From contig JAHCBA010000014.1 in assembly GCA_019634625.1 (NCBI GenBank), positions 1 through 64,000 on the forward strand: a DNA stretch of 64,000 bases. The letters run 5' to 3'. The translations under genes were made by a program, and so were the position numbers. Positions within the stretch are counted from its first letter, which is position 1, and every line of letters starts with the position of its first letter. Below, piece by piece: positions 1,009 to 14,218 of the stretch. Source of the DNA: Verrucomicrobiia bacterium. Its GTDB lineage: Bacteria; Verrucomicrobiota; Verrucomicrobiia; Limisphaerales; CAIMTB01. The notes beneath the pieces were generated by a model. That model saw only the letters and a program-made list of their open reading frames with translations. It was not told the DNA's origin and searched no databases.

Positions 1009-1152
1009 CCGCCTGACCCGCCCCGCATGACTTACCGCCGCACCGACGCCACCCGCGGCCCGGTGCCCGTCCAGTCGCCTACGTCCGCCGCCCGCCCGGA
1101 ACGTCCGCCGTTCCGACGGGCGGCGTGCCCATTGCCCCTTCCTGCACCCGCC

Positions 1153-4100
1153 ATGTCCGCCCGCCTCGCCGCCCCATTCCTCGCCGCACTGTCCCTGTCC
1201 CTCGCGGCGGGAGCCGCCACCGGATCCGGCCCCTCCGTCTCCTTCAATCGCGACATCCGCCCCATCCTCTCCGACCATTGCTTCGCCTGCCACGGCCCCG
1301 ACGAAAACACCCGCAAGGCCGGCCTCCGCCTCGACCTCGAATCCGACGCCCGGAAAGTTCTCCGTTCGGGCTATGCCGCCATCGTCCCCGGTCAACCCGA
1401 CGAAAGCGAACTGCTCGCCCGCATCACCACCCGCCACGCCGGTGACCTGATGCCGCCGCCGGATCTAAAGAAACCCCTCACCGACGGGAAGATCGATCTG
1501 CTCCGCCAGTGGATCGCCCAGGGCGCCCCCTATGAGGGTCACTGGGCCTACAGCGCTCCCGTCCGCCCTGAGCCTCCCGAAGTCCCCAACGCCTCCTGGC
1601 CCCGATCCGATCTCGACCGCTTCGTCCTCGCCCGCCTTCACCAGGAAGGCCTCGATCCCACCCCCGAAGCGCCCAGGGAAAAACTCCTCCGCCGCGTCAC
1701 CCTCGATCTCACCGGACTCCCCCCGACCGTCGAGGACCTTGATGCCTTCCTGGCGGATCCCGAACCCGACGCCTACGAGCGCGTCGTGGATCGCCTCCTC
1801 GCCTCACCCCACTACGGCGAACGCATGGCCCAGCAGTGGCTCGATCTCGCCCGCTATGGCGAAACCCAGGGCTACCACCACGACCGTCACCGCGACCTAT
1901 GGCGCTGGCGGGACTGGGTCATCCAGGCCTTCAACGCCAACCAGCCCTTCGACGAGTTCACCGTCGATCAACTCGCCGGCGATCTCCTCCCCAACCCCTC
2001 CCGCGAACAACGCGTCGCCACCGGCTTTCACCGCAACGAGATGACCACGTCCGAGGGTGGCGCCCTCCCCGAGGAGTACCTCGTCAAGTACGCCGTCGGC
2101 CGCGTCGATACCACCGCCCGCGTCTGGCTCGGAAGTTCCGTGGCCTGCGCCGAGTGCCACGACCACAAGTACGACCCCATCTCCCAGCGCGATTACTACC
2201 GCTTCTTCGCCTTCTTCTACGACACCCCGGAAAACGGCCTCGATGCCGAGGAACTCAACCCGGTTCCCCGGATCACCCTGGAAACGCCCGAGCAGCGGGC
2301 CCGGGCCGACCAACTGAACCGCGAGGTCGCCGCTCTCGAAGCTTCCGAACGCCTCGTCCTTGCCGCCGATCATGCGGAGTGGGATGCCGCCCAGGCCGCC
2401 TGGGAAACCGCCCACCGGAACCGCAGCGTCCGCGGCTGGCAGCCCCTCTCCCTCGCCACGTCCCGCGTCGCCCGCACCACGTCCCTCCGTCAGGACGACG
2501 AAGCCGCACTCACCCTCCATGGCGCCCCGCACGACACCGCGACCTACGACCTTACGTTCCACACCGAAGCCCGTGACCTGCGTGGCTTCCGCCTCGAAAC
2601 CCTTCCGCCGCCTTCTGACACCCGGCCGGAGCCCCCCGCCGGTGCCGACCCCGTCGTCCTTTCCCACATCACCGTCGAAATCCACAGCCGCGACCCCGAA
2701 CGCGAGGTCTTCCCCGACGACGCCCCCCAAACCACCGGCTGGCTCCGGCTGGGTCCCTTCGGTGCCGCCTCCGCCAAGGACGCCTTCGACCGCGAGTTCG
2801 GACCGGAGAAGAACGCTTCCCCCGACGCCACCTTCGACAACGGCAAACTGCGCTGGACCCCGGAGAACGGGTCCAACCGTTCCGCCGACGCCCCCAGCGC
2901 CCCCGGCACCCTGGACATCGTGACGCTCCCGCCCTCGCCGGGGGCCACGTACCTCCAACGCACCCTCACCGTCCGCGAAGGGCGGCTCGTCGAAGCCCGC
3001 CTCGATCGACGCCAGGGCGTCCGCCTCTGGCTGAACGACCGACCGGTCTTCGCCCAGGCCACCCCTCCCTCCGAAGGCGCCCAGGCCGACCGCCTCGTCC
3101 TCTGGCTTCGACCCGGCACCAACCGGCTCCTCGTCAAGGCGGTCCATGCCACCGAAGGGGACACCGTCGCCCTTCACCTGACCGGCGATCCCGTCACCAC
3201 GGCACCCCTCGACCTCGCCGCCGCCGCCGCCGATCATCACGCGGGCGACCACCATCCCAAGGGTCTCCTCGATCCCCGGCCTGAAACCGGCTGGTCCGTC
3301 GGAGCCTCGCCCGCCACGGCCCACGCCGCCTTCCTTCGCACCCACGAGACGTTCGGGTTCAAGGGCGGCACCGGGATCCGCGTGCGCCTCACCTTCCGCG
3401 GGCACACCGGCGCCGGCGACTGGGATCGCATCCGCCTGTCGGTCACCGACTCCCCCACCCTCGCCGAGTTCATCGATCTCCCCGATCCCATCCGCGCCTC
3501 GCTCCTCGCCGAGTCCGCCAATCTCGATGCCGCCCGGAGATCCGCCCTGCGCCGTTTCTACCGCGAACAACACGTCCCCGAAGCCGCGCAAGCCCGTCAA
3601 CTGCTCACCACCAAACGGCAGGAACGCGACCAGTTCGTCCGCACCTGGCCCACCGCGATGGTGATGCAGGCCGCCTCCCCCGCCCGCGAAACCCACATCC
3701 GGATCCGTGGCGAATACGACAACCTCGGCGAAAAGGTCCCGCCCGGCGTTCCCGAAGCCCTGTTCCCATGGTCTGAGGACCTTCCCCCCAATCGCCTCGG
3801 TCTGGCCCGCTGGCTCACCGATCCCCGCCATCCCCTCACCGCCCGTGTGGTCGTCAATCAGTACTGGCAGAAGTATTTCGGAACCGGGCTGGTGAAGACC
3901 TCCGAGGACTTCGGATTCCAGGGCGAATGGCCCAGCCACCCGGAACTCCTCGACTGGCTGGCCACCGAATTCCTCCGCACCGGCTGGGACATCAAGGCCA
4001 TGCAGCGCCTCATCGTCACGTCCGCCACCTACCGCCAGGATTCCGTGATCTCCCGCGATCGCCTCGAACAGGATCCCGAAAACCGCCTGCTCACCCGCGG

Positions 4101-4734
4101 TCCCCGCTTCCGCCTGGATGCCGAAAACATCCGCGATCTCGCCATGGCGGCGAGCGGCCTGCTTCACCCGAAGATCGGCGGCCCGAGCGTCTTTCCCTAT
4201 CAACCCCCCGGCCTCTGGGGCCAGGTCGCCTTCGAAGGCACCCGCGATTACGTCCAGAGCGAGGGCCCCGACAACTACCGCCGCGGCCTTTACACCTACT
4301 GGCGCCGCTCCATCCCCTACGCCTCCTTCACCCTCTTCGACGCCCCCAGCCGCGAGGTCTGCACGGTGCGCCGGCCCCGCACCAACACCCCCCTCCAGGC
4401 GCTCGCCCTGATGAACGACCCGGTCTATGTCGAGGCCGCCCGCGCCCTCGCCCACCGCGTCCTCACCCACGGCGGCTCCACCACCCGCGACCGCGTCCGC
4501 TACGCCTTCACCCTCGTCCTCGGACGCCGGCCCGCTCCCGCCGAAGTCGCCCTTCTCACCGCCGCCTTCGACCGCGAATTCAGCCAGTTCGCCGCCGATC
4601 GCGAAGCCGCCAACCGCCTCATCCACGTCGGCGCCTCCCGGCCTCCCGTGGATGTGGATATCGCCGAACTCGCCGCCTGGACCATCGTGGCCAGCACGCT
4701 TCTCAACCTCGACGAAGCCATCACCCGCGGCTGA
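1153..4734 (+). CDS. PSCyt1/DUF1549/DUF1553 (PSD1) c-type cytochrome-like protein
   Basis: A large (1,193 aa) exported protein. It has an N-terminal signal peptide (residues 1-22), a PSCyt1 domain with a haem c motif CFACH at 43-47, a DUF1549 (PSCyt2) domain with a second CxxCH (CAECH in VACAECHDHKYDP), a central region probably of beta-sandwich character, and a C-terminal DUF1553/PSD1 domain (NRLGLARWLTDP ... GEWPSHPELLDWL). This order and length match the family abundant in Planctomycetota and Verrucomicrobiota. Its biochemical function is unknown; a periplasmic role in breaking down complex substrates is often suggested. The ATG at 1153 directly precedes the signal peptide and was preferred over 1027. 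The DUF1501 gene follows 31 bases downstream, the usual pairing. Confidence 0.93.
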   Translation: MSARLAAPFLAALSLSLAAGAATGSGPSVSFNRDIRPILSDHCFACHGPDENTRKAGLRLDLESDARKVLRSGYAAIVPGQPDESELLARITTRHAGDLMPPPDLKKPLTDGKIDLLRQWIAQGAPYEGHWAYSAPVRPEPPEVPNASWPRSDLDRFVLARLHQEGLDPTPEAPREKLLRRVTLDLTGLPPTVEDLDAFLADPEPDAYERVVDRLLASPHYGERMAQQWLDLARYGETQGYHHDRHRDLWRWRDWVIQAFNANQPFDEFTVDQLAGDLLPNPSREQRVATGFHRNEMTTSEGGALPEEYLVKYAVGRVDTTARVWLGSSVACAECHDHKYDPISQRDYYRFFAFFYDTPENGLDAEELNPVPRITLETPEQRARADQLNREVAALEASERLVLAADHAEWDAAQAAWETAHRNRSVRGWQPLSLATSRVARTTSLRQDDEAALTLHGAPHDTATYDLTFHTEARDLRGFRLETLPPPSDTRPEPPAGADPVVLSHITVEIHSRDPEREVFPDDAPQTTGWLRLGPFGAASAKDAFDREFGPEKNASPDATFDNGKLRWTPENGSNRSADAPSAPGTLDIVTLPPSPGATYLQRTLTVREGRLVEARLDRRQGVRLWLNDRPVFAQATPPSEGAQADRLVLWLRPGTNRLLVKAVHATEGDTVALHLTGDPVTTAPLDLAAAAADHHAGDHHPKGLLDPRPETGWSVGASPATAHAAFLRTHETFGFKGGTGIRVRLTFRGHTGAGDWDRIRLSVTDSPTLAEFIDLPDPIRASLLAESANLDAARRSALRRFYREQHVPEAAQARQLLTTKRQERDQFVRTWPTAMVMQAASPARETHIRIRGEYDNLGEKVPPGVPEALFPWSEDLPPNRLGLARWLTDPRHPLTARVVVNQYWQKYFGTGLVKTSEDFGFQGEWPSHPELLDWLATEFLRTGWDIKAMQRLIVTSATYRQDSVISRDRLEQDPENRLLTRGPRFRLDAENIRDLAMAASGLLHPKIGGPSVFPYQPPGLWGQVAFEGTRDYVQSEGPDNYRRGLYTYWRRSIPYASFTLFDAPSREVCTVRRPRTNTPLQALALMNDPVYVEAARALAHRVLTHGGSTTRDRVRYAFTLVLGRRPAPAEVALLTAAFDREFSQFAADREAANRLIHVGASRPPVDVDIAELAAWTIVASTLLNLDEAITRG

Positions 4735-4765
4735 ACCCTTCCAACCTGCCCAACCCCTGACCGCG

Positions 4766-6208
4766 ATGCTCCCCCCCCTGCCCCACGAAATCGCCCGATC
4801 CCTCAGCCGCCGCGCCTTCTTCCGCCGTTCCGGCCTGGGCCTCGGAGCCATGGCCCTCGGCACCCTGCTCGGCGACGACCTCCGCGCCGCCACCCCCGGC
4901 GCTGGCGTGGCCCAGTCCCCGTACCACCACGCTCCGACCGCCAAACGCATCATCTATCTCTTTCAGTCCGGCGCCCCCTCCCACCTCGACCTGTTCGATC
5001 CCAAGCCCCGGCTCACCGAGATGACCGGGCTCGATCTGCCGGATTCGGTGCGCATGGGGCAGCGCATCACCGGCATGACCAGCGGACAGAAGAACCTTTT
5101 CTGTGTCGGCTCGGCCTTCCCGTTCTCCCGACGCGGCCAGTGCGGCATGGAACTGTCCAACATCCTCCCCCACCTCGGGAACATCGCCGACGACATCTGC
5201 CTCCTCCGGGCGGTCCACACCGACCCCATCAATCACGACCCGGCGGTCACCTACCTGTTCACCGGCCATCAGCAGCCCGGACGTCCCACCCTGGGTGCCT
5301 GGGCCAGCTACGGCCTGGGCAGCGAGAACCAGGATCTCCCCGCCTTCATCGTCCTCCTCTCCGGCAGCGGCGGTCAGTCCCTCCAGACCCGCTACTGGGG
5401 TTCCGGCTTTCTTCCCAGCCGCCACCAGGGCGTCCAGTTCCGGGGCGCCGGCGATCCCGTCCTCTTCTTCTCCAACCCGCCCGGCTTCAGCGAACGCGCC
5501 CGCCGCGCCATGCTCGACGATCTCCAGTCCCTCAACCGCCTCCAGTCCGAGGTTGTGGGCGACCCCGAGATCGACACCCGCATCCAGGCCTACGAGATGG
5601 CCTTCCGCATGCAGACCAGCGTGCCGGAACTCATGGACCTCTCGAAGGAATCCGCTGAAACCCTTGAACTCTACGGAGCCAAACCCGGCGAGGCCTCCTA
5701 CGCCAACAACTGCCTCCTCGCACGCCGCCTCGTCGAACGCGGGGTCCGGTTCGTGAAGCTCATCCACCGCGACTGGGATCACCACGGCGGCCTCCCCTCC
5801 GGCATCCGCCACCAGGCCCACCTCACCGACCGCGCCAGCGCCGCCCTCATCCAGGACCTCAAACGCCGCGGTCTCCTCGATGACACCCTCGTCGTCTGGG
5901 GCGGCGAGTTCGGTCGCACCGCCTACTGCCAGGGAGAACTCCGCAAGGACAACTTCGGCCGCGATCATCATCCCCGATGCTATTCCATCTGGATGGCTGG
6001 CGGCGGCATCCGGCCCGGGCACGTCCATGGGGAAACCGACGACCTCGGCTACAACATCGTCCGCGACGGCGTCCACATCCACGACCTCCACGCCACCCTC
6101 CTCCATTGCCTCGGCATCGACCACGAACGCCTGACCTTCCGGTTCCAGGGACGCGACTTCCGCCTGACCGATGTGGCCGGCAAGGTGGTCCGGCCCATCC
6201 TTGCCTGA
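4766..6208 (+). CDS. DUF1501 family Tat-exported protein
   Basis: A 480-residue protein that begins with a twin-arginine signal (SRRAFFRRSGLGLGAMALG). The body carries DUF1501 hallmarks: a FQSGAPSHLDLFDPKP stretch near the N-terminus, the RDWDHHGG motif, and the VVWGGEFGRT and GRDHHP motifs in the C-terminal third. The family belongs to the alkaline-phosphatase/sulfatase-like fold, and its substrate is unknown. It lies 31 bases after the PSCyt/DUF1549/DUF1553 gene and is almost certainly co-transcribed with it. Tat export implies folding, possibly with a metal, before transport to the periplasm, where its cytochrome-like partner should also be. The ATG at 4766 was chosen because it precedes the RR motif; upstream frame sequence is a shadow of the preceding gene. 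Confidence 0.93.
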   Translation: MLPPLPHEIARSLSRRAFFRRSGLGLGAMALGTLLGDDLRAATPGAGVAQSPYHHAPTAKRIIYLFQSGAPSHLDLFDPKPRLTEMTGLDLPDSVRMGQRITGMTSGQKNLFCVGSAFPFSRRGQCGMELSNILPHLGNIADDICLLRAVHTDPINHDPAVTYLFTGHQQPGRPTLGAWASYGLGSENQDLPAFIVLLSGSGGQSLQTRYWGSGFLPSRHQGVQFRGAGDPVLFFSNPPGFSERARRAMLDDLQSLNRLQSEVVGDPEIDTRIQAYEMAFRMQTSVPELMDLSKESAETLELYGAKPGEASYANNCLLARRLVERGVRFVKLIHRDWDHHGGLPSGIRHQAHLTDRASAALIQDLKRRGLLDDTLVVWGGEFGRTAYCQGELRKDNFGRDHHPRCYSIWMAGGGIRPGHVHGETDDLGYNIVRDGVHIHDLHATLLHCLGIDHERLTFRFQGRDFRLTDVAGKVVRPILA

Positions 6209-6622: not shown

Positions 6623-6683
6623 CGATTCTACCCGGTACTCCTCGAAGTGCCAGATGGCCGCTGGGCGTGACCTGATCGCAGAT

Positions 6684-6791: not shown

Positions 6792-9700
6792 ATGAACACG
6801 TTGTCTCGATGGGACTTCTCGCGATGGCTGCTGGCCGCGGCGGGGCTGATGCTGGGTGGCGCTCGAGGCGGACAGGCCGAGGAGGAGAGTCGCTGGTCCC
6901 GCGGGTTTGGGGAACCCGGTTTGACCTCGGCGGTCCACGCGATGATTGCCGACGGGAACCGGGTTTTTGTCGGAGGCGATTTCGGGCTGCGGTTGTGGGA
7001 TGGGCAGGCCTGGAACGGCGTGGGGGGCGACGTGGACGGAGCTGTGTACGCCCTGGCGCGGGTCGAGGAGGGGATTGTGGTCGGGGGACGGTTTGACCGG
7101 GTGGGTTCGGTCGTGGCGCGCAACATCGCGTTGTGGGACGGGCAACGCTGGCATCCTCTGGGCTCCGGCGTGGACGCGCCCGTGTTCGCGGTGGCGGGAG
7201 GTTTGGGGACCGTGGTGGCGACCGGGAATTTCCGGGAGGCGGGCGGGGTGCCGGTGCGGTTCGTGGCCCGCTGGGAGTTTGGGGAATGGCACGCGCTTGA
7301 AGGGGACGAGGCGGAGGGCTTGGACAGTTCCGGGGAGGCAATCGCCCTGGGTCCCGGCGGCGAGGTGGTGGTGGCGGGTTGGTTCACCGAGGCCGGCGGC
7401 GTGCCGGCCTTGGGTGTGGCGGAATGGGATGGAACGACCTGGTCGGCATGGGGGGACGGGTTGGAACGAGAAGGGTTGGCAGGACCCATGCCCGGTCAGG
7501 GGCTGGCGTTGGGACGGGACGACGAGGGCTGGTGGGTGGCGGGTCAGTTCGTCCGAGCGGGCGGTGTGACGGTGAACCACGTGGCCCGTTGGGACGGTCA
7601 CGCCTGGTCGGCGCTGGGGGATGGGCTCCTGGGCCCTCCCGGGTCGCCCAACACCCAGGTGACGGCCTTGGTTCGGACACGCGAGGGTTGGGTGGCTGCC
7701 GGGGAGTTCGCGAGGTCGGGTGACCGGCCGGTGGTCGGCCTCGCCCGTTGGGATGGCGCAGCCTGGCAACCTCGGGCGGATGACGGGGAACCGCAGGGAG
7801 GCGTGTCGCGCCTGGCGACGACTTCGGATGGCGCGTTGTATCTGGGTGGCCGGTTCACCCGGTTGGGAGCGGCCGTGACGGGTTTGGGGATCGCCCGGTT
7901 CCGGGAGGGACGATTCGAGGCTCTGGGCGACGGCGTCGTGGGCAGCGTGCTGACCCTGGTACCGGACGGCGATGAAGCCGTGCTGGCGGGGGGCCAGTTC
8001 GCCCACGGCGGCGGGCAGGTCCTGGGCGGTGTGGGGCGATGGACCGGGAATCGCTGGGAAGCCCTGGGGGAAGGCGTGGAGGGGGTGGTGCACGCGGCGA
8101 CCCGGTTGGCGGACGGATCGGTGGTGGTCGGCGGAGGATTGGAGAGCGCCGGCGGCGAAGCAGTCCGCGGTCTCGCCCGCTGGGACGGCCGATCGTGGTC
8201 GGGCTGGGATCCACCGCTGGGCGGTCCCAACGTGGAGGTGACCGCCCTGGCGCCGGCCGGGGCCGGATTCTTTGTCGGTGGCGGCTTTACCGAGGCCGGG
8301 GGAATCCCAACGCGGAATGTCGGGTATTGGAACGGCTCGGCCTGGGAATCCCTGGGCACCCCGGAGGTCCAGGGAGTGAACGGACGCGTGGAGACGCTCG
8401 TGGTGCAGGGGGACGACCTGTTCGTGGGCGGGTGGTTCACCGAAGCCGGAGGTCAACCAGCCACCGGATTGGCCCGGTGGCGCCGCCTGGAGGGTCGGTG
8501 GGAGGGATCGACGGGGCTGGACCCATTCGTCGGTTCGGAGACGGTGGCCGTGCATGCCCTCGCGCCATGGCAGGGCGGGATCGTCCTGGGCGGCCGCTTC
8601 CGCGTCGCCGGGGACGGAGGAACGGCCGGGCATCTGGCGTTCTGGGACGGCCAGCACGTGGGTCCGGTGAATGGCCGGATCGAGGTTTCGTTGGGCGGAC
8701 CTGTTCACGCCCTGGCGGTGGACGGAGCAGACCTCTATGTGGGCGGGAACTTCGAGCAAGCAGGCGGGGCTTTGGCACCGGGTGTGGCGCGATGGAACGC
8801 GGCCGGAGGTTGGGCCTCGCTCGAGGAGGGCATCGCCAGCCCGGTCCGGGCGCTGGCGGTGGCGGCACGACGTCTGGTGGCGGGCGGAGAGTTCCAACGG
8901 GCAGGGCGCGTGCCTTCCCACGGCCTGGCGGAGTGGCGAATCGAGGCCACCGAACCCGCCTTGATTTGGACCAGCCCTTCCCCGGGCGCCGTGGTGCCGG
9001 CAGGCGAACCCATCCCAATGCAAGTGGACCTCCTGCGGCTCGACCCGGCGACCGTGGCGCGAGTGGAGTTTTACCGGGGTCTCGCAGTCCTCGGGTCGGC
9101 AAGCGAACCGCCCTTCGCCTGGACATGGACCACGGCGCGCCCCGGCGAACATGAGCTGCGGGCGGTGGCGGTGCACGGCGACGGACGCACGGTCGAGTCG
9201 GGCGTCCGTCGTGTCATCGTGGCACCGCCATTGGACAACCTCCCGCCCCAGGTGTCCCTGGTCAGCCCGACGAACCAGCAGGTCTTGGTTCGGGGCGAGC
9301 CGTGGACGTTGCAGGCGACGGCATTGGACCTGGATGGCGAGGTGGTGCGCGTGGAATTCCTGGTGGGCCAGGAGCAGGTGGGCGTGGCCACGCGTGCCCC
9401 ATACCGCGTGCCGGGTCCACCTCGGGCGGCTGGGGTGCATGAGGCCTGGGCCCGGGCCCATGACGACGCCGGTGCGGTGGGGGTCTCGCCCCGCGTCCGG
9501 TTCGTCGTGCGCGAACCGAACCTCCCGCCCATTGTCGAGTTCATCGCCCCGCGCGAACCGGTGTACGAGCAACCCGCCCCGGTGGTGTTCGTGGCCCGGG
9601 CGGAGGACTACGACGGCGAACTTCTGTCGGTCGAATTCGGGGTGGACGACCGGGTGTTGGTTCAGTTGCCCCCCCGGCCGGACTGGGCGGAATACCGGTA

Positions 9701-11675
9701 CTCATGGACCAACGCGCCGGTGGGCACCTACCAGCCGTGGGTGGTGGCCATCGACCGCGAAGGAGCCATCACCCGCCAGGAGTTGCCCGCGTTTCGGGTG
9801 GAACCTCCCAATCAACCGCCCGTCGTTCGCCTGGTCCGGCCCGGTGCAGGCCAGGTCCTCACCGGCCCGACCAACCTCGTGGTGCGCCTCGAGGCTTCCG
9901 ATCCCGACGGAGAGGTCGTCGAAGTCCGCCTGTGGGTGGATGAAACCCTCGCAGGTCATGCGCCGGGGCCGGTGGCGGACCTCGTCCTGACGAACCTGAC
10001 GGACGGCACCTACTGTCTGGCCGGGGAGGTGACCGATAACCGGGGGGCAACGGTCCGGACCGAGGCGGTCTGCATCACGGTGGTCACGCGGGCGGAGCGG
10101 TATCGGATGGTGGACCTCGGCGCGTGGACGGGCACGCGGGACAGCCGGGCGGAAGCGATCAACGTCCATGGCGAGGTGACCGGGTATGCGCCCATGGGCG
10201 ACGTGGCGGACAAAGCCTTTGGAATGGCCCATCATCCGGTCCTGGGGACCCGGTTCCAGTTCATGCCGGACCCGGTGGGGGCGGCGCCGTCTTCCATTGT
10301 CCGCACCTACGGGTTCGCCATCAACCGGCATGGCGAGGTGGCGGGGTTCGCCTCCGGCATTGGGGATCAGGATGTGGCGGTCCGGTTCGGCGTTGCCGGA
10401 TCCGAAATCCTGGGATCCCTGGACGGCTCCGGGGGCCGTGCGACGGCGCTGGGGATCAATGATCGGGGCGACGTCGTGGGGCGGAGTTACGCCGACCTGG
10501 GCGAGGGTCCACGCACGCTGGCCTTTGTGGTTCAGGACGGCGTCATGCGTGCGCTGCCCGCCGCCGGGGTGGGCACCAGCGAGGCGGTCGCCATCAACGA
10601 TCAAGGATGGATTGCCGGCACCATGGAAGGCATTGGAGGTCGCCAGGCGTTTCTTTACGAGGCGGGCTCCGGGGCGGCGGCGTTGACGGGCCTGGGATTG
10701 CCCGGCCCGGGCTACGCCGCCAGCGAGGCGACGTCCATCAATCGGCACCGGCAGGTGGCCGGGGCGGCCTGGCCCCTTCAGGGCGAACGCCGCGCCTTCA
10801 TTCATGCGGACGGGGCGTGGCGGGCGCTGGGATCGCTGGGCGGGGGATCCGGAGTGGCCCTGGATCTCAACGACCACGGCCTCGTGGTGGGGCACAGCAT
10901 CAATTACCGGACCGAACGCCACGCCTGCCTGTGGATCGACGACGTGGCCCATGACCTCAACCACCTCGTCGTCGGCCCGGCCCCGCTGCGCCTGATCGAG
11001 GCCACCGGGATCAATGACCGGGGTTGGATCGTCGCCTGGGGCGTCCGCGTGGTGGGCAACCAGGAGCAGCGCCGCGCCGCCCTGTTGCTGCCGTCTCCCG
11101 CCGTCGCCACGCCCGATCCCCCGGTACTGAACCGGCAGACCGGCCTGTTCGAACAACGCGTGTCCTTCCAGGTGCCCGGCCCAAACCCGCACCCGGTGGC
11201 GCGCCTGCTGCTGGGCGACCTGCCGCCGGGCATCGAGTTCCGCCAGGCCCGGAACGGTGCGGACGGTCCCTACGTCGAGGCTGAGGGGCCTTGGGAGCCG
11301 GGCGATGTCGTGTCGTTCGTGCTCGAGTATTACGCAGCGGATCGCCGGCCGTTCACGCCCCCGATCCTGTTGGCGGATCTGACGCCTCCCGCGGTGCTCG
11401 CGGAGGCGGGAGCAGGAACGCCGGTGGTCACCCGGGTGCTGCGGTTGCGTGACGGGGCGGTGCTGGTCGAGTTCCCCACGCTGGCCGGCCGGGAGTACAT
11501 CGTGGAAACCAGTGATGACGCCGAGCGCTGGTGGACCGTTTCGCCGCCGCTCGCGGGCACCGGTCAGCGGGTTCAGTGGTTGGACCAGGGCCCGCCCAAG
11601 ACACCGCCCCTGACCACGGCGCAACGATTCTACCGGGTGTTCCTGGTACCCGGGACGGCGGACAAACAGCCATGA
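6792..11675 (+). CDS. Giant secreted repeat protein: 14 propeller-like repeats, four Ig-like domains, HAF repeats
   Basis: A 1,627-residue exported protein with a signal peptide (RWLLAAAGLMLGGARGGQAE). Residues about 35-720 hold 14 repeats of roughly 50 residues, each with a VGGxFxxAGG core followed by a xLARWDGxxW strand. This resembles Rax2/delta-60 beta-propeller repeats, and 14 would fit two seven-bladed propellers. Four Ig-like domains follow, each opening PPxVxLxxP. Next come seven HAF-like repeats (AINxxGEVxGxA). The C-terminus carries the REYIVETSDDAERWW...FYRVF domain common at the ends of verrucomicrobial secreted proteins. The ATG at 6792 precedes the signal peptide. The next gene overlaps its stop (ATGA). 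Codons end mostly in G, unlike the C-ending codons of plus-strand neighbours. Probably a cell-surface or secreted binding protein; the ligand is unknown. Confidence 0.85.
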   Translation: MNTLSRWDFSRWLLAAAGLMLGGARGGQAEEESRWSRGFGEPGLTSAVHAMIADGNRVFVGGDFGLRLWDGQAWNGVGGDVDGAVYALARVEEGIVVGGRFDRVGSVVARNIALWDGQRWHPLGSGVDAPVFAVAGGLGTVVATGNFREAGGVPVRFVARWEFGEWHALEGDEAEGLDSSGEAIALGPGGEVVVAGWFTEAGGVPALGVAEWDGTTWSAWGDGLEREGLAGPMPGQGLALGRDDEGWWVAGQFVRAGGVTVNHVARWDGHAWSALGDGLLGPPGSPNTQVTALVRTREGWVAAGEFARSGDRPVVGLARWDGAAWQPRADDGEPQGGVSRLATTSDGALYLGGRFTRLGAAVTGLGIARFREGRFEALGDGVVGSVLTLVPDGDEAVLAGGQFAHGGGQVLGGVGRWTGNRWEALGEGVEGVVHAATRLADGSVVVGGGLESAGGEAVRGLARWDGRSWSGWDPPLGGPNVEVTALAPAGAGFFVGGGFTEAGGIPTRNVGYWNGSAWESLGTPEVQGVNGRVETLVVQGDDLFVGGWFTEAGGQPATGLARWRRLEGRWEGSTGLDPFVGSETVAVHALAPWQGGIVLGGRFRVAGDGGTAGHLAFWDGQHVGPVNGRIEVSLGGPVHALAVDGADLYVGGNFEQAGGALAPGVARWNAAGGWASLEEGIASPVRALAVAARRLVAGGEFQRAGRVPSHGLAEWRIEATEPALIWTSPSPGAVVPAGEPIPMQVDLLRLDPATVARVEFYRGLAVLGSASEPPFAWTWTTARPGEHELRAVAVHGDGRTVESGVRRVIVAPPLDNLPPQVSLVSPTNQQVLVRGEPWTLQATALDLDGEVVRVEFLVGQEQVGVATRAPYRVPGPPRAAGVHEAWARAHDDAGAVGVSPRVRFVVREPNLPPIVEFIAPREPVYEQPAPVVFVARAEDYDGELLSVEFGVDDRVLVQLPPRPDWAEYRYSWTNAPVGTYQPWVVAIDREGAITRQELPAFRVEPPNQPPVVRLVRPGAGQVLTGPTNLVVRLEASDPDGEVVEVRLWVDETLAGHAPGPVADLVLTNLTDGTYCLAGEVTDNRGATVRTEAVCITVVTRAERYRMVDLGAWTGTRDSRAEAINVHGEVTGYAPMGDVADKAFGMAHHPVLGTRFQFMPDPVGAAPSSIVRTYGFAINRHGEVAGFASGIGDQDVAVRFGVAGSEILGSLDGSGGRATALGINDRGDVVGRSYADLGEGPRTLAFVVQDGVMRALPAAGVGTSEAVAINDQGWIAGTMEGIGGRQAFLYEAGSGAAALTGLGLPGPGYAASEATSINRHRQVAGAAWPLQGERRAFIHADGAWRALGSLGGGSGVALDLNDHGLVVGHSINYRTERHACLWIDDVAHDLNHLVVGPAPLRLIEATGINDRGWIVAWGVRVVGNQEQRRAALLLPSPAVATPDPPVLNRQTGLFEQRVSFQVPGPNPHPVARLLLGDLPPGIEFRQARNGADGPYVEAEGPWEPGDVVSFVLEYYAADRRPFTPPILLADLTPPAVLAEAGAGTPVVTRVLRLRDGAVLVEFPTLAGREYIVETSDDAERWWTVSPPLAGTGQRVQWLDQGPPKTPPLTTAQRFYRVFLVPGTADKQP

Positions 11676-12739
11676 CACCCCCCGCTGCATCCATCATGAA
11701 CGCCCTCCCGCCCGGCCTGCTGACCCTCGGACTCGTGGCCGCCTTCGGCCTGGCACCAACCGATCTTCACGCCAGCGAAGGGCAACGCCACCGGATCGGG
11801 ATCAACACCCGGATCGCATTCCGCGTGGAGGCCACGTTCCGAAACCTCGGCGAGTATCGCAGCCCGATGAACCCCGGTCCGGAGCGTGGCGGCGGCACGG
11901 ACCGGTTCTACGAGGACGGCTTCGTTCGCGTGGATGCTTCAGGCAACGCCGATGGCGGAACCTGGTACTGGGGTTACGAGGATTCCGAACGCCAGGTCGT
12001 GGGCGACACCGTGCAGATGCAGGTCCTCGAGGCTCCGGGCGGATTGACGTCGTCGGTCCACGACGATCCACATGCCGGAGTGGAACTGCGGTATGGCTAC
12101 GTGTGGCGATCGGATCCTCGCGCCCTCTGGCTCCTGGAGGCCGCCCTCGGCTGGACGGAGTTCGACTTCACCGACCGGCGGACGCTGACGGGACCGGCCC
12201 GGCGGACCGTCGATACCTTCCCGCTCGACGGCGTGGTGCCGCCCTGGGCCGCGCCGGCGGAACCCTACTCCGGGTCCTTCGCGGGGCCCGGCCCGATTCT
12301 GGGCGATGCGCCGATCCGGACTTCCGAGACACGACCCGACGGCCTGGTGCTGGAGGGGGAACGCCGGTTGCGGACGAGCCTGGGCACGCTGCGCCTTGGG
12401 CCGGCCGTCGAGGTGCCGTGGACGGAGCAGTGGTCGGCCCAGTTCGGCGCCGGATTGGCCCTGGCGTTGGCGGACGGCGAATTCACCCGGTCGGAGACCT
12501 TGTCCCCCTGGGCCGGGCCTCCGGTGCGACGGTCGGGTGGAACCTCCGACACGGAGTTCCTGGTGGGGGCGTACGCGGAGGGGTTGGTCCATGTCACATG
12601 GCCCCGCGGGTTCGGCCTGTTCGCCGGAGCGCAATACCAGTATCTCCCAGATTTCCGGCAGGCATTGGAGGGACAGGAAGCTGTCGTGCGGTTCAGCCGC
12701 GGGTTTTTCCTGATCGCGGGCCTGCGTTACGGGTTTTGA
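11672..12739 (+). CDS. Putative outer-membrane beta-barrel protein
   Basis: 355 residues; the start codon overlaps the stop of the giant repeat protein (ATGA), so the two are probably translationally coupled. A signal peptide ends near ...APTDLHA; the second ATG (11696) would place it more typically. The mature part alternates polar and hydrophobic residues (VELRYGYVWRSDPRALWLLEAALGW, cut here into strands) and ends in a strand terminating with Phe (LRYGF), as expected for a BAM-inserted beta-barrel. No family can be named with certainty. The coupling suggests it anchors, exports or displays the upstream repeat protein, which is an inference. Confidence 0.7.
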   Translation: MTPPAASIMNALPPGLLTLGLVAAFGLAPTDLHASEGQRHRIGINTRIAFRVEATFRNLGEYRSPMNPGPERGGGTDRFYEDGFVRVDASGNADGGTWYWGYEDSERQVVGDTVQMQVLEAPGGLTSSVHDDPHAGVELRYGYVWRSDPRALWLLEAALGWTEFDFTDRRTLTGPARRTVDTFPLDGVVPPWAAPAEPYSGSFAGPGPILGDAPIRTSETRPDGLVLEGERRLRTSLGTLRLGPAVEVPWTEQWSAQFGAGLALALADGEFTRSETLSPWAGPPVRRSGGTSDTEFLVGAYAEGLVHVTWPRGFGLFAGAQYQYLPDFRQALEGQEAVVRFSRGFFLIAGLRYGF

Positions 12740-12874
12740 GCGGCATCGGAGCGGAGCCGCCGTGGAGGAGTGACGTCCGGGTTGGTCGGAACGTACCGCC
12801 CGCCGGCGCACGTTCGGGTGCCCGAATCGCCGTTGACCGCCACCGCGAGGGTCCCGCATGGTCCCAAACGTTCT

Positions 12875-14218
12875 ATGGCGCCTCATTCCTGCCGGTTCGG
12901 TCCTGACCTTCCCCCCGCTCCGCCCGCCCACCGTGGCCGGCGCACCGAACGCCCCCCCCTTCCCCGATCGTGCCCCTTCCGATCCGTCCTGTCCGCATTC
13001 CTCCTGCTCGCCGTCACCCTCCCGGGACGCACCGAGGTGATCTACGACAACTTCGCCAACACCCTTGTCTCGTTTGTCTCCCGCCCCGAGGAATTCGGCG
13101 ACGAAATCCGCTTCGCCGGCTCGGCCCGCGTCATCACCGCGATGACCTTCGAGGTCGTCGGCGAACGGGACCTCCCCTCCGAGGCGCGGGCCGTCTTCCG
13201 CATCTATCGCAACAACGGCCCGATTCCGGCTCCGCCCGATCCCGCCATCCCCACTCCCGGCGAACTTCTCTACGAAAGCCACCCGATTCCCCTTCTTCCC
13301 GGCATTCAGACCCTCCGAATCACGGACATCGACGTTCCGGTGCCCAACGTGGTGGTCTGGACCGTCGAGTTCCTCAACACCCCGGCCCTGGCCGGAGAAC
13401 GCGCCGGTCTTCAGGTCTATTTTCCACCCACCGTCGGCAGGACCTTCCGCGACTACTGGGTGCGCGACCCTGACTCCTTCCGCCTCTACCTCCTGGGCGA
13501 CGGATTGCCCGCGGCCTTCGGCGCCCGGTTCGAAGCCCAACCGGACCCGCCCGTGCTCGTCACTGCCGCCGCTCATCCCGATGGCCGCCCGCTCCTGACC
13601 ATCACCGGTCCGATCGGCTCGGAGCACATTCTCGAGGCATCCTCCGATTCCCAAAACTGGCGCGCCCTCGGCATCGTCAGCCTGGCCACCACCAATGCCT
13701 CCAGCTTCCTCGCGGACAGCGTCCCCAACGGCACCGAACAATTCTACCGGACCCGCCCATCCCCCTTCCCCGGCCGCACCGTTCTGGTGAAAGGCATCCA
13801 GCGTTCCGAATCCGGCGCCTCCCTCCTCACTCTCGAAGGTCCCGCCGGTTCCGAAACGGTCGTCGAGGCGTCGCCCGACGGCCGGCAGTGGCGCCCCCTC
13901 GACATCGTCCGCTTTCCGCAACCCATCGTCACCTACGAGGACGCCACCCCTCCCTCCGGCCAGCTCCGTCTCTATCGCACGCGCCGTCCGCAACACTTCG
14001 GCGCCCTCTACCTCATCCGCAGTGTGGTGCCCCAATCCGACGGCTCGGCCATCCTGACCGCCATCGGCCGTCCGAGCATCCAGTCGGTCACCGTCGAGGC
14101 CACCAGCGACTACCAAACCTGGTCCCCGGTGGGAACCATCCGCTTTGACACCGAGGAGGCGACGTTCGTCGATCCCAGCCCGGCGGCGTCCGGACGCATC
14201 TACCGCCTGCGCATCTAA
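12875..14218 (+). CDS. Secreted protein with three C-terminal tandem repeats
   Basis: A 447-residue protein. The hydrophobic stretch SVLSAFLLLAVTLP is probably the signal peptide, but it sits about 35 residues in, so the start is uncertain. The N-terminal domain (about 55-220) begins EVIYDNFANT and reads like the PEP-CTERM-type 'choice of anchor' domain of exported proteins. Three repeats of about 70 residues follow, each with the pattern LxxxGPxGSExxxEASxDxxxWxxL ... FYRTR. This is the same module that ends the giant protein upstream. The C-terminus is YRLRI. Function unknown; the domain style suggests a surface or secreted protein. Codon use is C-ending, so it lies outside the G-rich segment. 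Confidence 0.65.
   Translation: MAPHSCRFGPDLPPAPPAHRGRRTERPPLPRSCPFRSVLSAFLLLAVTLPGRTEVIYDNFANTLVSFVSRPEEFGDEIRFAGSARVITAMTFEVVGERDLPSEARAVFRIYRNNGPIPAPPDPAIPTPGELLYESHPIPLLPGIQTLRITDIDVPVPNVVVWTVEFLNTPALAGERAGLQVYFPPTVGRTFRDYWVRDPDSFRLYLLGDGLPAAFGARFEAQPDPPVLVTAAAHPDGRPLLTITGPIGSEHILEASSDSQNWRALGIVSLATTNASSFLADSVPNGTEQFYRTRPSPFPGRTVLVKGIQRSESGASLLTLEGPAGSETVVEASPDGRQWRPLDIVRFPQPIVTYEDATPPSGQLRLYRTRRPQHFGALYLIRSVVPQSDGSAILTAIGRPSIQSVTVEATSDYQTWSPVGTIRFDTEEATFVDPSPAASGRIYRLRI

Follow-up and report, generated by a model that had tools for sequence, protein, structure and literature searches.

How very large surface proteins are placed on the outside of the cell by Verrucomicrobiota is poorly known. 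At the locus described here the gene for a giant exported protein is joined directly to the gene for a small predicted outer-membrane barrel. Both genes, and all features given below with their coordinates, lie on the forward strand of the window, the whole stretch of 64,000 nucleotides that was analysed. The first-pass annotation had proposed a two-component display or secretion system at this locus; the two-component part is now supported by the barrel model and by the recurrent pairing of the genes, and display or secretion itself is what we infer.

Domain Organization of the Large Exported Protein

The first gene (P0001, 6792-11675), delineated from its open reading frame, translation and Pfam and NCBIfam domains, encodes an exported multidomain protein of 1,627 residues, referred to here as the cargo. 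An alternative in-frame ATG is present upstream at 6654, 6792 being the better start. Residues 1-29 (MNTLSRWDFSRWLLAAAGLMLGGARGGQA, 6792-6878) read as a likely Sec signal peptide, and no hydrophobic 19-mer was found anywhere in the protein. An iterated repeat profile identified exactly 14 propeller-type repeats of the VGGxF kind between residues 55 and 734 at a spacing of 37-55, with repeats 1-7 at residues 55-388 (6954-7955) and repeats 8-14 at residues 394-734 (7971-8993), the second set being also covered by a match to the Rax2 beta-propeller family (E 2e-14, 54 bits, above the cut-off of 28.8). The 14 repeats are likely to form two propellers, which would be seven-bladed.

The repeats are followed by a bacterial Ig-like region at about residues 728-1097 (8973-10082), where Pfam places four stretches of Big_7 (E 1.9e-35) and where relatives in the PDB cover residues 728-911 and 1007-1097. 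Exactly seven HAF-type repeats then occupy residues 1115-1440 (10134-11111) at a spacing of 43-54, as found by an iterated profile and by the NCBIfam model HAF_rpt (TIGR02913, E 1.2e-14, 53.9 bits, above the cut-off of 22.65). Both repeat profiles were trained on the cargo protein itself and their E-values hold by construction; in 20 shuffled copies they gave 0-1 matches per copy. DUF3466 (E 4.6e-5) and DUF5122 (E 0.022, 15.5 bits, cut-off 27) were also matched in Pfam, each under the cut-off of its family. The 14 propeller-type repeats, four Ig-like domains and seven HAF repeats first read from the sequence are confirmed, with independent support from the domain databases.

A Predicted OmpA-like Barrel Whose Gene Overlaps the Stop Codon of the Cargo Gene

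The second gene (11672-12739) begins, as had been noticed, within the stop codon of the first, the ATG at 11672 overlapping the TGA at 11673-11675 in an ATGA (11672-11675). Third-position GC is 0.816 in the cargo gene and 0.815 in the barrel gene; positions 1/2 have 0.758/0.543 and 0.699/0.548, respectively. An open reading frame on the opposite strand (11939-14116) raised the possibility that the barrel gene is an artefact, which is excluded by this coding-type GC3 bias and by homologues that share the same ending.

The product has 355 residues, a signal peptide read by eye and a C-terminal Phe (...YGF), and its assignment draws on the translation, a structural model, an OmpA-type match and an alignment of 40 relatives. 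Its AlphaFold2 model (pLDDT 91.7, pTM 0.81) has OmpA as its best structural match (Z 17.1 over 175 residues at 2.8 Å), with OmpW at Z 16.1 and OmpA/OmpW-type matches in general at Z 16-17 and 2.4-2.8 Å; OmpT (Z 10.2), BrkA (8.2) and NalP (7.5) rank lower. OmpA is eight-stranded, OmpT ten-stranded and the autotransporters BrkA and NalP twelve-stranded, and eight-stranded barrels have narrow, filled lumens. Query-normalised TM-scores from Foldseek against the PDB were low, at 0.12-0.33 among the 50 matches listed, and the strand count of eight is taken from the strand list of the model together with the ranking of its matches. The second protein is thus confidently modelled as an outer-membrane barrel closest to the eight-stranded OmpA/OmpW type, in keeping with the outer-membrane barrel ending in Phe that had been predicted and not with a soluble secreted protein. 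Similarity in sequence to known families is marginal (NspA, E 0.031), with OMP_b-brl matching 5 of the 40 barrel members in Pfam at a best value of 6.5e-6. Of the 32 paired barrels listed, 31 have an aromatic C terminus (30 Phe, 1 Trp), the exception, L053, being a broken barrel. A scan of the contigs of the genome with the barrel protein (P0002) returned two distant loci only.

Two long loops stand out in the alignment and in regional conservation, loop 1 at residues 64-112 (11861-12007, YxDGxV...GNxxGxTWxWGY...Q) and loop 2 at residues 185-214 (12224-12313, VPPxAPYxGxxxGPGPxI). Both are expected to lie outside the cell, an orientation assigned by general rules from the short turns DPRA, WTEQ and WPRG and the termini on the opposite face. 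The 40 most conserved barrel residues include 28 in loops or outward strand parts, and conservation of the two loops together is above that of the rest of the barrel, a level equalled in 15 of 318 circular shifts.

A Constant C-terminal Domain with Interchangeable Bodies

The C-terminal module noted in the cargo protein proved to be shared with the partners of other paired barrels. This C-terminal domain (CTD), defined from an alignment of 33 partners and a model, comprises the last ~180-185 residues of each protein and residues 1440-1627 in the window (11109-11672). Seven residues are invariant in the alignment (W1596, D1598, G1600, P1602, T1604, R1612 and Y1614), all within the most conserved stretch, QWLDQGPPKT...RFYRV at residues 1595-1617 (11574-11642), for which the consensus is QWIDxGPPKT…RFYRV. 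The model (pLDDT 88, pTM 0.69) predicts two beta-sandwich domains, for which Foldseek against the PDB returns weak Ig/FN3-like matches only (Z at most 6.7); the CTD matches no curated family, and its profile found no PDB sequence at E 1. A hydrophobic 19-mer is present in the last 60 residues of 0 of 32 cargo partners, and since such a segment is missing from all 32 we conclude that they have no sortase-type membrane anchor.

The remainder of these proteins varies widely, from an N-terminal part of ~380 residues up to an open frame that spans 10,068 codons. At a threshold of 1e-5, similarity links 527 of 528 pairs of C-terminal ends, as against 115 of 496 pairs of N-terminal parts. Among the families listed for the 33 partners, the bodies carry Ig_3 (12), DUF11 (11), Big_7 (7), Big_9 (5), Cadherin_5 (5), HYR (3) and FG-GAP (2). 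What these proteins have in common is their last ~185 residues; the propeller, Ig and HAF part of the window protein is interchangeable cargo.

Recurrence of the Gene Pair

That the two genes co-occur in relatives was examined by BLASTP of P0001 against the open reading frames at 42 barrel loci, and the gene just upstream of the barrel was matched in 32. All 32 matches lie in or include the CTD, mostly at residues 1440-1620; in four (L050, L061, L063 and L069) the match is restricted to its second half or less, and in five the Ig region is matched as well. Four of the 10 loci without a partner match are at contig ends. Between the stop of the partner and the first candidate start of the barrel gene lie at most 43 nt in 30 of the 32 loci, and the spacing is often -4. 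An independent sample of the phylum contains 21 full-length CTDs that are not from the window's own genome, of which 16 adjoin a barrel, one is at a contig end and four are without a barrel. Among relatives, 35 of 37 full CTDs are paired, a rate that is partly by construction, as neighbours of barrels had supplied the sequences of the CTD alignment; of the four full CTDs outside that alignment, two are paired. The linkage recurs in other classes of Verrucomicrobiota and holds even where the gene order is inverted (L107).

Each gene also occurs alone. Full CTDs are found without a barrel at G043:C144 and G053:C39, and further at G256, G235:C4, G311 and G300:C144. Barrels without a CTD occur among relatives at L035, L038 and L039, which represent a subfamily from the genus of the window and adjoin an unrelated gene, and at three further loci (L033, L034, L070); many barrels of family f58 in the phylum sample also lack a CTD. 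Eight partial matches cover only the CTD's C-terminal half and none adjoins a barrel, which weakens the case for that half as the sole pairing signal. The difference in pairing between full and partial CTDs (35/37 versus 0/8, Fisher p 2e-7) is confounded, since the alignment used includes 33 of the 37 full CTDs, and the partial matches are also weaker. A two-gene unit thus recurs across Verrucomicrobiota, in which a C-terminal tag is constant and the remainder changes; no description of this CTD-barrel pair was found in those parts of the literature that were searched.

Co-divergence and Gene Neighbourhood

Comparison of CTD and barrel trees gave a mirror-tree r of 0.638 for the true pairings, and among 2,304 re-pairings of paralogues within genomes the true one alone reaches this value, the other 2,303 being lower. 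Co-divergence indicates inheritance as a unit and not contact, of which it is no proof because linked, co-inherited genes co-diverge without touching. A larger operon is ruled out: no other gene family recurs beside more than 7 of the 46 paired loci, and the family found at 7 resembles a generic response regulator.

A Proposed Surface Display Pair and Its Alternatives

We propose that the pair is a modular cell-surface display system in which the conserved outer loops of the barrel dock the CTD, a reading that we regard as evenly balanced and in which docking, surface location and anchoring are what we infer. The first gene would yield an exported cargo with a signal peptide, an interchangeable and usually repeat-rich body of adhesion or binding type (in the window, two likely propellers followed by Ig domains and a HAF-repeat domain) and the constant CTD. 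The second would yield a small OmpA-like barrel inserted in the outer membrane, whose two long conserved loops may form an outside cap, the putative cognate docking site for the CTD. Once docked, the CTD would hold the giant protein on the surface, or the barrel may take part in the last step of export. The support computed for this proposal comprises an exported-type cargo, a conserved CTD, a predicted barrel fold, gene linkage that is tight across families, co-divergence of true pairs and N-terminal swapping. The stronger claim, of a self-contained and so far undescribed display system of Verrucomicrobiota in which the outer cap recognises the CTD with specificity matched pair by pair, is tentative and on present evidence somewhat doubtful.

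The best-surviving alternative, which we consider unlikely, is that the barrel is the outer-membrane translocator of its cargo and the CTD a secretion signal, as in TpsB/TpsA or Slam/T11SS. The logic of those systems, as given in the consulted parts of PMC5422565, PMC8406197 and PMC12282271, is the same, with one cargo and one barrel encoded by adjacent genes and a variable effector joined to a constant signal domain. However, the best matches of the barrel model are eight-stranded barrels, whose lumens are narrow and filled, and POTRA, DUF560 and autotransporter domains are absent from the 40 barrel members in Pfam; as these family domains are not matched, membership among TPS, T11SS or autotransporter-type channels is rejected. 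In addition, ~39 residues precede the first strand in the model, which leaves the barrel protein no room for a periplasmic receptor domain. A secretion-channel mechanism is judged less likely because the modelled barrel belongs to a narrow class; with an eight-stranded barrel as the best match, anchoring or display is more plausible than a translocation pore.

Less probable still is that the barrel is a chaperone-like or accessory outer-membrane protein that would aid folding of the cargo or its passage through another machine, such as a type II secretin, and would not hold it afterwards. The genome has seven secretin-domain matches, and gene coupling, which leads to near-equal synthesis, would suit a helper. 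Yet a permanently embedded outer-membrane protein is an unusual helper, gene families of secretion machines do not recur next to the pairs, and we found no evidence tying the secretins of this genome to the cargo.

Another reading, in which the barrel acts as a small porin or receptor for ligands caught by the surface protein and the CTD is the contact domain, we think improbable. Pairs of a binding protein and an outer-membrane protein are known, SusD/SusC and TbpB/TbpA among them, and FG-GAP, Ig and propeller bodies are able to bind ligands, but the bodies are extremely diverse among partners of one barrel family, an eight-stranded barrel usually lacks a large pore, and the neighbourhood shows no recurring gene family for metabolism or transport. 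A coincidental or merely historical linkage of two abundant surface-gene families, to which orphan barrels and the eight barrel-less matches to the CTD C-terminal half might point, is very improbable given adjacency at 32 of 42 barrel loci and for 16 of 21 full-length CTDs, when only a few of thousands of genes encode a barrel, and given that the linkage recurs in other classes, holds in inverted order and has its best r for the true pairings.

If the display reading is true, almost any repeat-built body of up to thousands of residues could be displayed without a lipid anchor, a sortase or a POTRA-type channel, and the pair would be a test case for an eight-stranded barrel as a dedicated protein anchor. 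CTD and barrel profiles would then offer a genomic handle by which surface proteins could be predicted across a phylum that is abundant in the environment, and the one-cargo/one-barrel platform might be transferred to laboratory strains.

Comparison with Known Systems

A close parallel in organization is the T11SS (Slam/DUF560 outer-membrane protein with TbpBBD-type cargo), in which, in the sections consulted, the outer-membrane protein gene likewise adjoins the cargo gene and a variable N-terminal effector is joined to a constant C-terminal domain. In that system, which is one of Proteobacteria, the DUF560 barrel has 14 strands and a periplasmic TPR domain, and the CTD of the cargo is an eight-stranded barrel (PMC8406197, PMC12282271), whereas the window pair has a small OmpA-like barrel and a CTD of two predicted beta-sandwiches, in Verrucomicrobiota, and the word Verrucomicrobi- is absent from the main text of both papers. 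At E 0.1 in Pfam, DUF560 was matched in none of the 40 barrel members and TbpBBD or the lipoprotein C barrel domain in none of the 33 CTDs.

Two-partner secretion (type Vb) also combines a large exported cargo with a dedicated outer-membrane partner. According to the part of PMC5422565 consulted, its signal lies at the N terminus of the cargo and TpsB, an Omp85 barrel, has 16 strands and two POTRA domains, whereas the constant domain of the window pair is C-terminal. Neither POTRA nor ShlB is matched among the 40 barrel members in Pfam; the N-terminal TPS domain is not matched by P0001 in Pfam at E 1, nor is it among the families listed for the 33 partners (25 of 46). The classical autotransporter, of which no domain is found in the 40 barrel members in Pfam, differs in that cargo and barrel are here in separate genes.

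An Ig-like beta-sandwich CTD that ends diverse surface proteins is shared with T9SS cargo, where, in the text consulted, one multi-protein machine serves all cargo, unlike the window-type pairs with their own barrel gene for each cargo (PMC5445135). One of 33 partners gave a weak full-length match to the T9SS type A tail (Por_Secre_tail, E 0.0031) and one of 40 barrels a weak match to PorP/SprF (6.8e-4); no T9SS sorting domain was matched in the 33 CTDs in NCBIfam at E 0.1. The PEP-CTERM, GlyGly-CTERM and MYXO-CTERM tags, of which PEP-CTERM is known from Verrucomicrobia (PMC4960237, in the part consulted), are likewise C-terminal sorting determinants on otherwise diverse surface proteins. They are, however, short and protease-cut with a transmembrane helix, whereas the window CTD has ~185 folded residues and no hydrophobic tail, and no NCBIfam match of these types occurs in the 33 CTDs at E 0.1. 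The barrel itself resembles OmpA/OmpW-type eight-stranded barrels in predicted fold and C-terminal Phe, and differs from them in two long and conserved outer loops, of about 49 and 30 residues, and in sequence, where similarity is marginal. Taken together, the pair would work like the cargo/outer-membrane protein pairs of T11SS, TPS or T9SS, yet it belongs to none of these systems.

The cargo and barrel genes

The cargo ORF (P0001, 1,627 aa; 6792-11675, + strand) and the barrel ORF directly behind it (P0002, 355 aa; 11672-12739, +) are as the first-pass annotation describes them, and they overlap by ATGA. The 14 propeller-type and seven HAF-type repeats claimed for P0001 were recovered with an iterated profile, which gave 0-1 in shuffled copies; Pfam and NCBIfam back the HAF repeats and a Rax2-type propeller, and place the claimed Ig-like domains as Big_7 in four stretches. 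P0002 has no match in Pfam or NCBIfam.

Upstream of the pair lie a PSD1/PSCyt1/PSCyt2 gene (1027-4734, +) and, immediately before the cargo, a DUF1501 gene (4427-6208, +), a combination common in Planctomycetes and Verrucomicrobia; a relative of the former was found in just one other paired locus (L048). Downstream is an exported-looking ORF of 482 aa (12770-14218, +), whose true start is probably later than the GTG at 12770. Its three FN3-like repeats, of the kind VEAS.D...W ... YR, resemble by eye the second domain of the C-terminal module of P0001 (CTD, residues 1440-1627), but with the CTD profiles the ORF fell short of 1e-3. An opposite-strand ORF of 725 aa (11939-14116, -), which spans the barrel gene, appears to be a shadow ORF of the GC-rich sequence.

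A constant CTD on variable cargo

Relatives of P0002 occur in 29 of the 58 genomes of the relatives sample, including the source genome, which holds three places. When P0001 was compared by BLASTP with the ORFs of 42 barrel loci (40 places fetched with flanks and two loci from a separate search), 32 of them had a match in the gene that directly precedes the barrel. The gene pair recurs in relatives as a CTD-bearing gene followed by a barrel. In all 32 partners the match lies within or includes the CTD, mostly residues 1440-1620 with some beginning slightly earlier; in L050, L061, L063 and L069 only the second half of the module or less is matched, and five partners (L044, L052, L066, L071 and L072) also match the Ig region. 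The cargo stop lies at most 43 nt ahead of the first candidate barrel start in 30 of the 32 pairs, several of which overlap. The ten barrel loci lacking such an upstream gene comprise four at contig ends (L041, L046, L051 and L058) and six with other neighbours (L033, L034, L035, L038, L039 and L070); the genome of L046 (G016) has another contig, on which a full CTD precedes what appears to be the start of the same barrel. The barrels of L035 (source genome, contig C17), L038 (G002) and L039 (G003) belong to a subfamily in the genus of the window that has no CTD partner; the gene ahead of them, which looks like one for a LarA-type protein, ends in ...GPLTIPYLA.

An alignment of the C-terminal ends of 33 partners covers ~190 positions, at which Y, W, D, G, P, T, R and Y are invariant, and 527 of 528 pairs of these ends are similar at 1e-5; the N-terminal parts are similar in 115 of 496 pairs, 51 of these across most of their length. 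The shortest partner in the fetched stretches has 379 aa (246 at a contig end) and the longest 2,938 aa, several being cut where the stretch begins, and one cargo open frame in G006 (contig C161; L042, L096, L097) reaches 10,068 codons with the CTD at its end and the barrel directly behind. Domain content varies likewise among the 33 (Ig_3 in 12, DUF11 in 11, Big_7 in seven, Big_9 in five, HYR in three, FG-GAP in two, plus others). The parts, their linkage and the swapping of cargo are shown by the analysis. The CTD itself has no match above cut-off among curated families and none among PDB sequences; its model (pLDDT 88, pTM 0.69) predicts a pair of beta-sandwiches of Ig-like and FN3-like kind, for which the fold matches are weak (Z no higher than 6.7).

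Tightness of pairing and co-divergence

A CTD profile gave 37 full-length matches in the relatives sample, 35 of them (G016 counted) adjoined by a barrel, a rate with some circularity, since the alignment used had already included 33 of the 37. The four outside it are split between paired (G016, G057) and unpaired (G043:C144, G053:C39), and none of eight partial matches has a barrel beside it. A sample of 288 genomes from the phylum, independent except for the source genome, contains the barrel in 48 genomes at 1e-10 and the CTD in 16 at 1e-20. Outside the source genome the barrel adjoins 16 of 21 full-length CTDs, extending the claimed pairing across the phylum; one other lies at a contig end (G300:C191), and those without a barrel (G256, G235:C4, G311 and G300:C144) all score more weakly. 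One pair in G308 (L107) has the reverse order, with the barrel ahead of the CTD gene, and in G217 (L108) ~360 further residues follow the CTD within the same ORF. In the source genome, at L090 (G000:C25:28622-28864), a 1,759-aa exported-type protein has just the second half of the CTD at its C terminus (...WIDDGPP...RFYRL); behind it lies, by eye, an aminomethyltransferase-like gene and no barrel.

The CTD and barrel distance matrices of the 32 pairs correlate (r 0.638), a value equalled in 0 of 5,000 permutations. Among 2,304 re-pairings of paralogues within the eight genomes that have more than one pair, which hold species relationships fixed, the true pairing alone reached it. This shows that the pairs are inherited as units; co-divergence alone does not show contact.

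The barrel and a proposed mechanism

The structure of P0002, modelled from an alignment with 40 relatives (pLDDT 91.7, pTM 0.81), agrees with the outer-membrane barrel claimed from sequence. The best VIA-align matches are eight-stranded barrels (OmpA, Z 17.1; OmpW, 16.1; NspA, 15.3); the ten-stranded OmpT (10.2) comes next, and then autotransporter barrels (8.2 and below). Plain Foldseek TM-scores are low. From the strand list we read the model as eight membrane strands that extend outwards, and we place short turns at DPRA (148-151), WTEQ (250-253) and WPRG (310-313) and the long loops at residues 64-112 and 185-214. Well conserved motifs sit in these long loops, which together are more conserved than the rest of the barrel (equalled in 15 of 318 circular shifts), and loops or outward strand parts hold 28 of the 40 residues with the highest conservation. 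By sequence, links to named families are marginal: OMP_b-brl matches five of 40 members, AcfA-type four and PorP/SprF one, and NspA comes at E 0.031.

We infer that the CTD binds the barrel and that the cargo lies outside the cell. Once the cargo is exported, its CTD would meet the barrel's outer cap; the barrel would act as the outer-membrane holder of the CTD, with the cargo body displayed outside. The main alternative, that the barrel translocates the cargo, is less probable, given that the fold comparison favours the narrow eight-stranded class and that a periplasmic receptor domain is missing. The source genome has seven secretin matches, and secretins might carry the cargo across, with no tie between them and the cargo. 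No larger machine is encoded beside the pair, since the most recurrent other gene family occurs in at most seven of 46 paired loci. A hydrophobic segment at the C-terminal end is absent from P0001 and from all 32 partners.

Most fetched barrels of one family in the phylum sample, f58, have no CTD neighbour. In four of seven refetched f58 loci, the gene that starts within about 60 nt after the barrel encodes a protein of ~2,000 aa carrying 20-28 GGxF motifs. Three of these four were scanned, and all three are propeller proteins of the DUF5122 type (E 4.7e-149 or lower), so the barrel can remain beside giant propeller proteins despite a different tag. These GGxF proteins (L137-L140) lie behind the barrel and lack the CTD; at least those of L137 and L140 end in a Gly-rich stretch, a hydrophobic segment and an Arg cluster, an ending that resembles GlyGly-CTERM. 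The same barrel family possibly has a second way to hold cargo at these loci.

Comparison with known systems

The logic of the pair resembles that of T11SS (PMC8406197, PMC12282271), TPS (PMC5422565) and T9SS (PMC5445135). The pair was tested for defining features of T11SS and TPS, which it lacks, and a search for T9SS sorting domains yielded no more than one weak match. Judged by sequence, both CTD and barrel appear to fall outside known families. Given this shared logic and these differences, the pair is a variant of the arrangement in which cargo with a constant sorting domain is joined to an outer-membrane partner.
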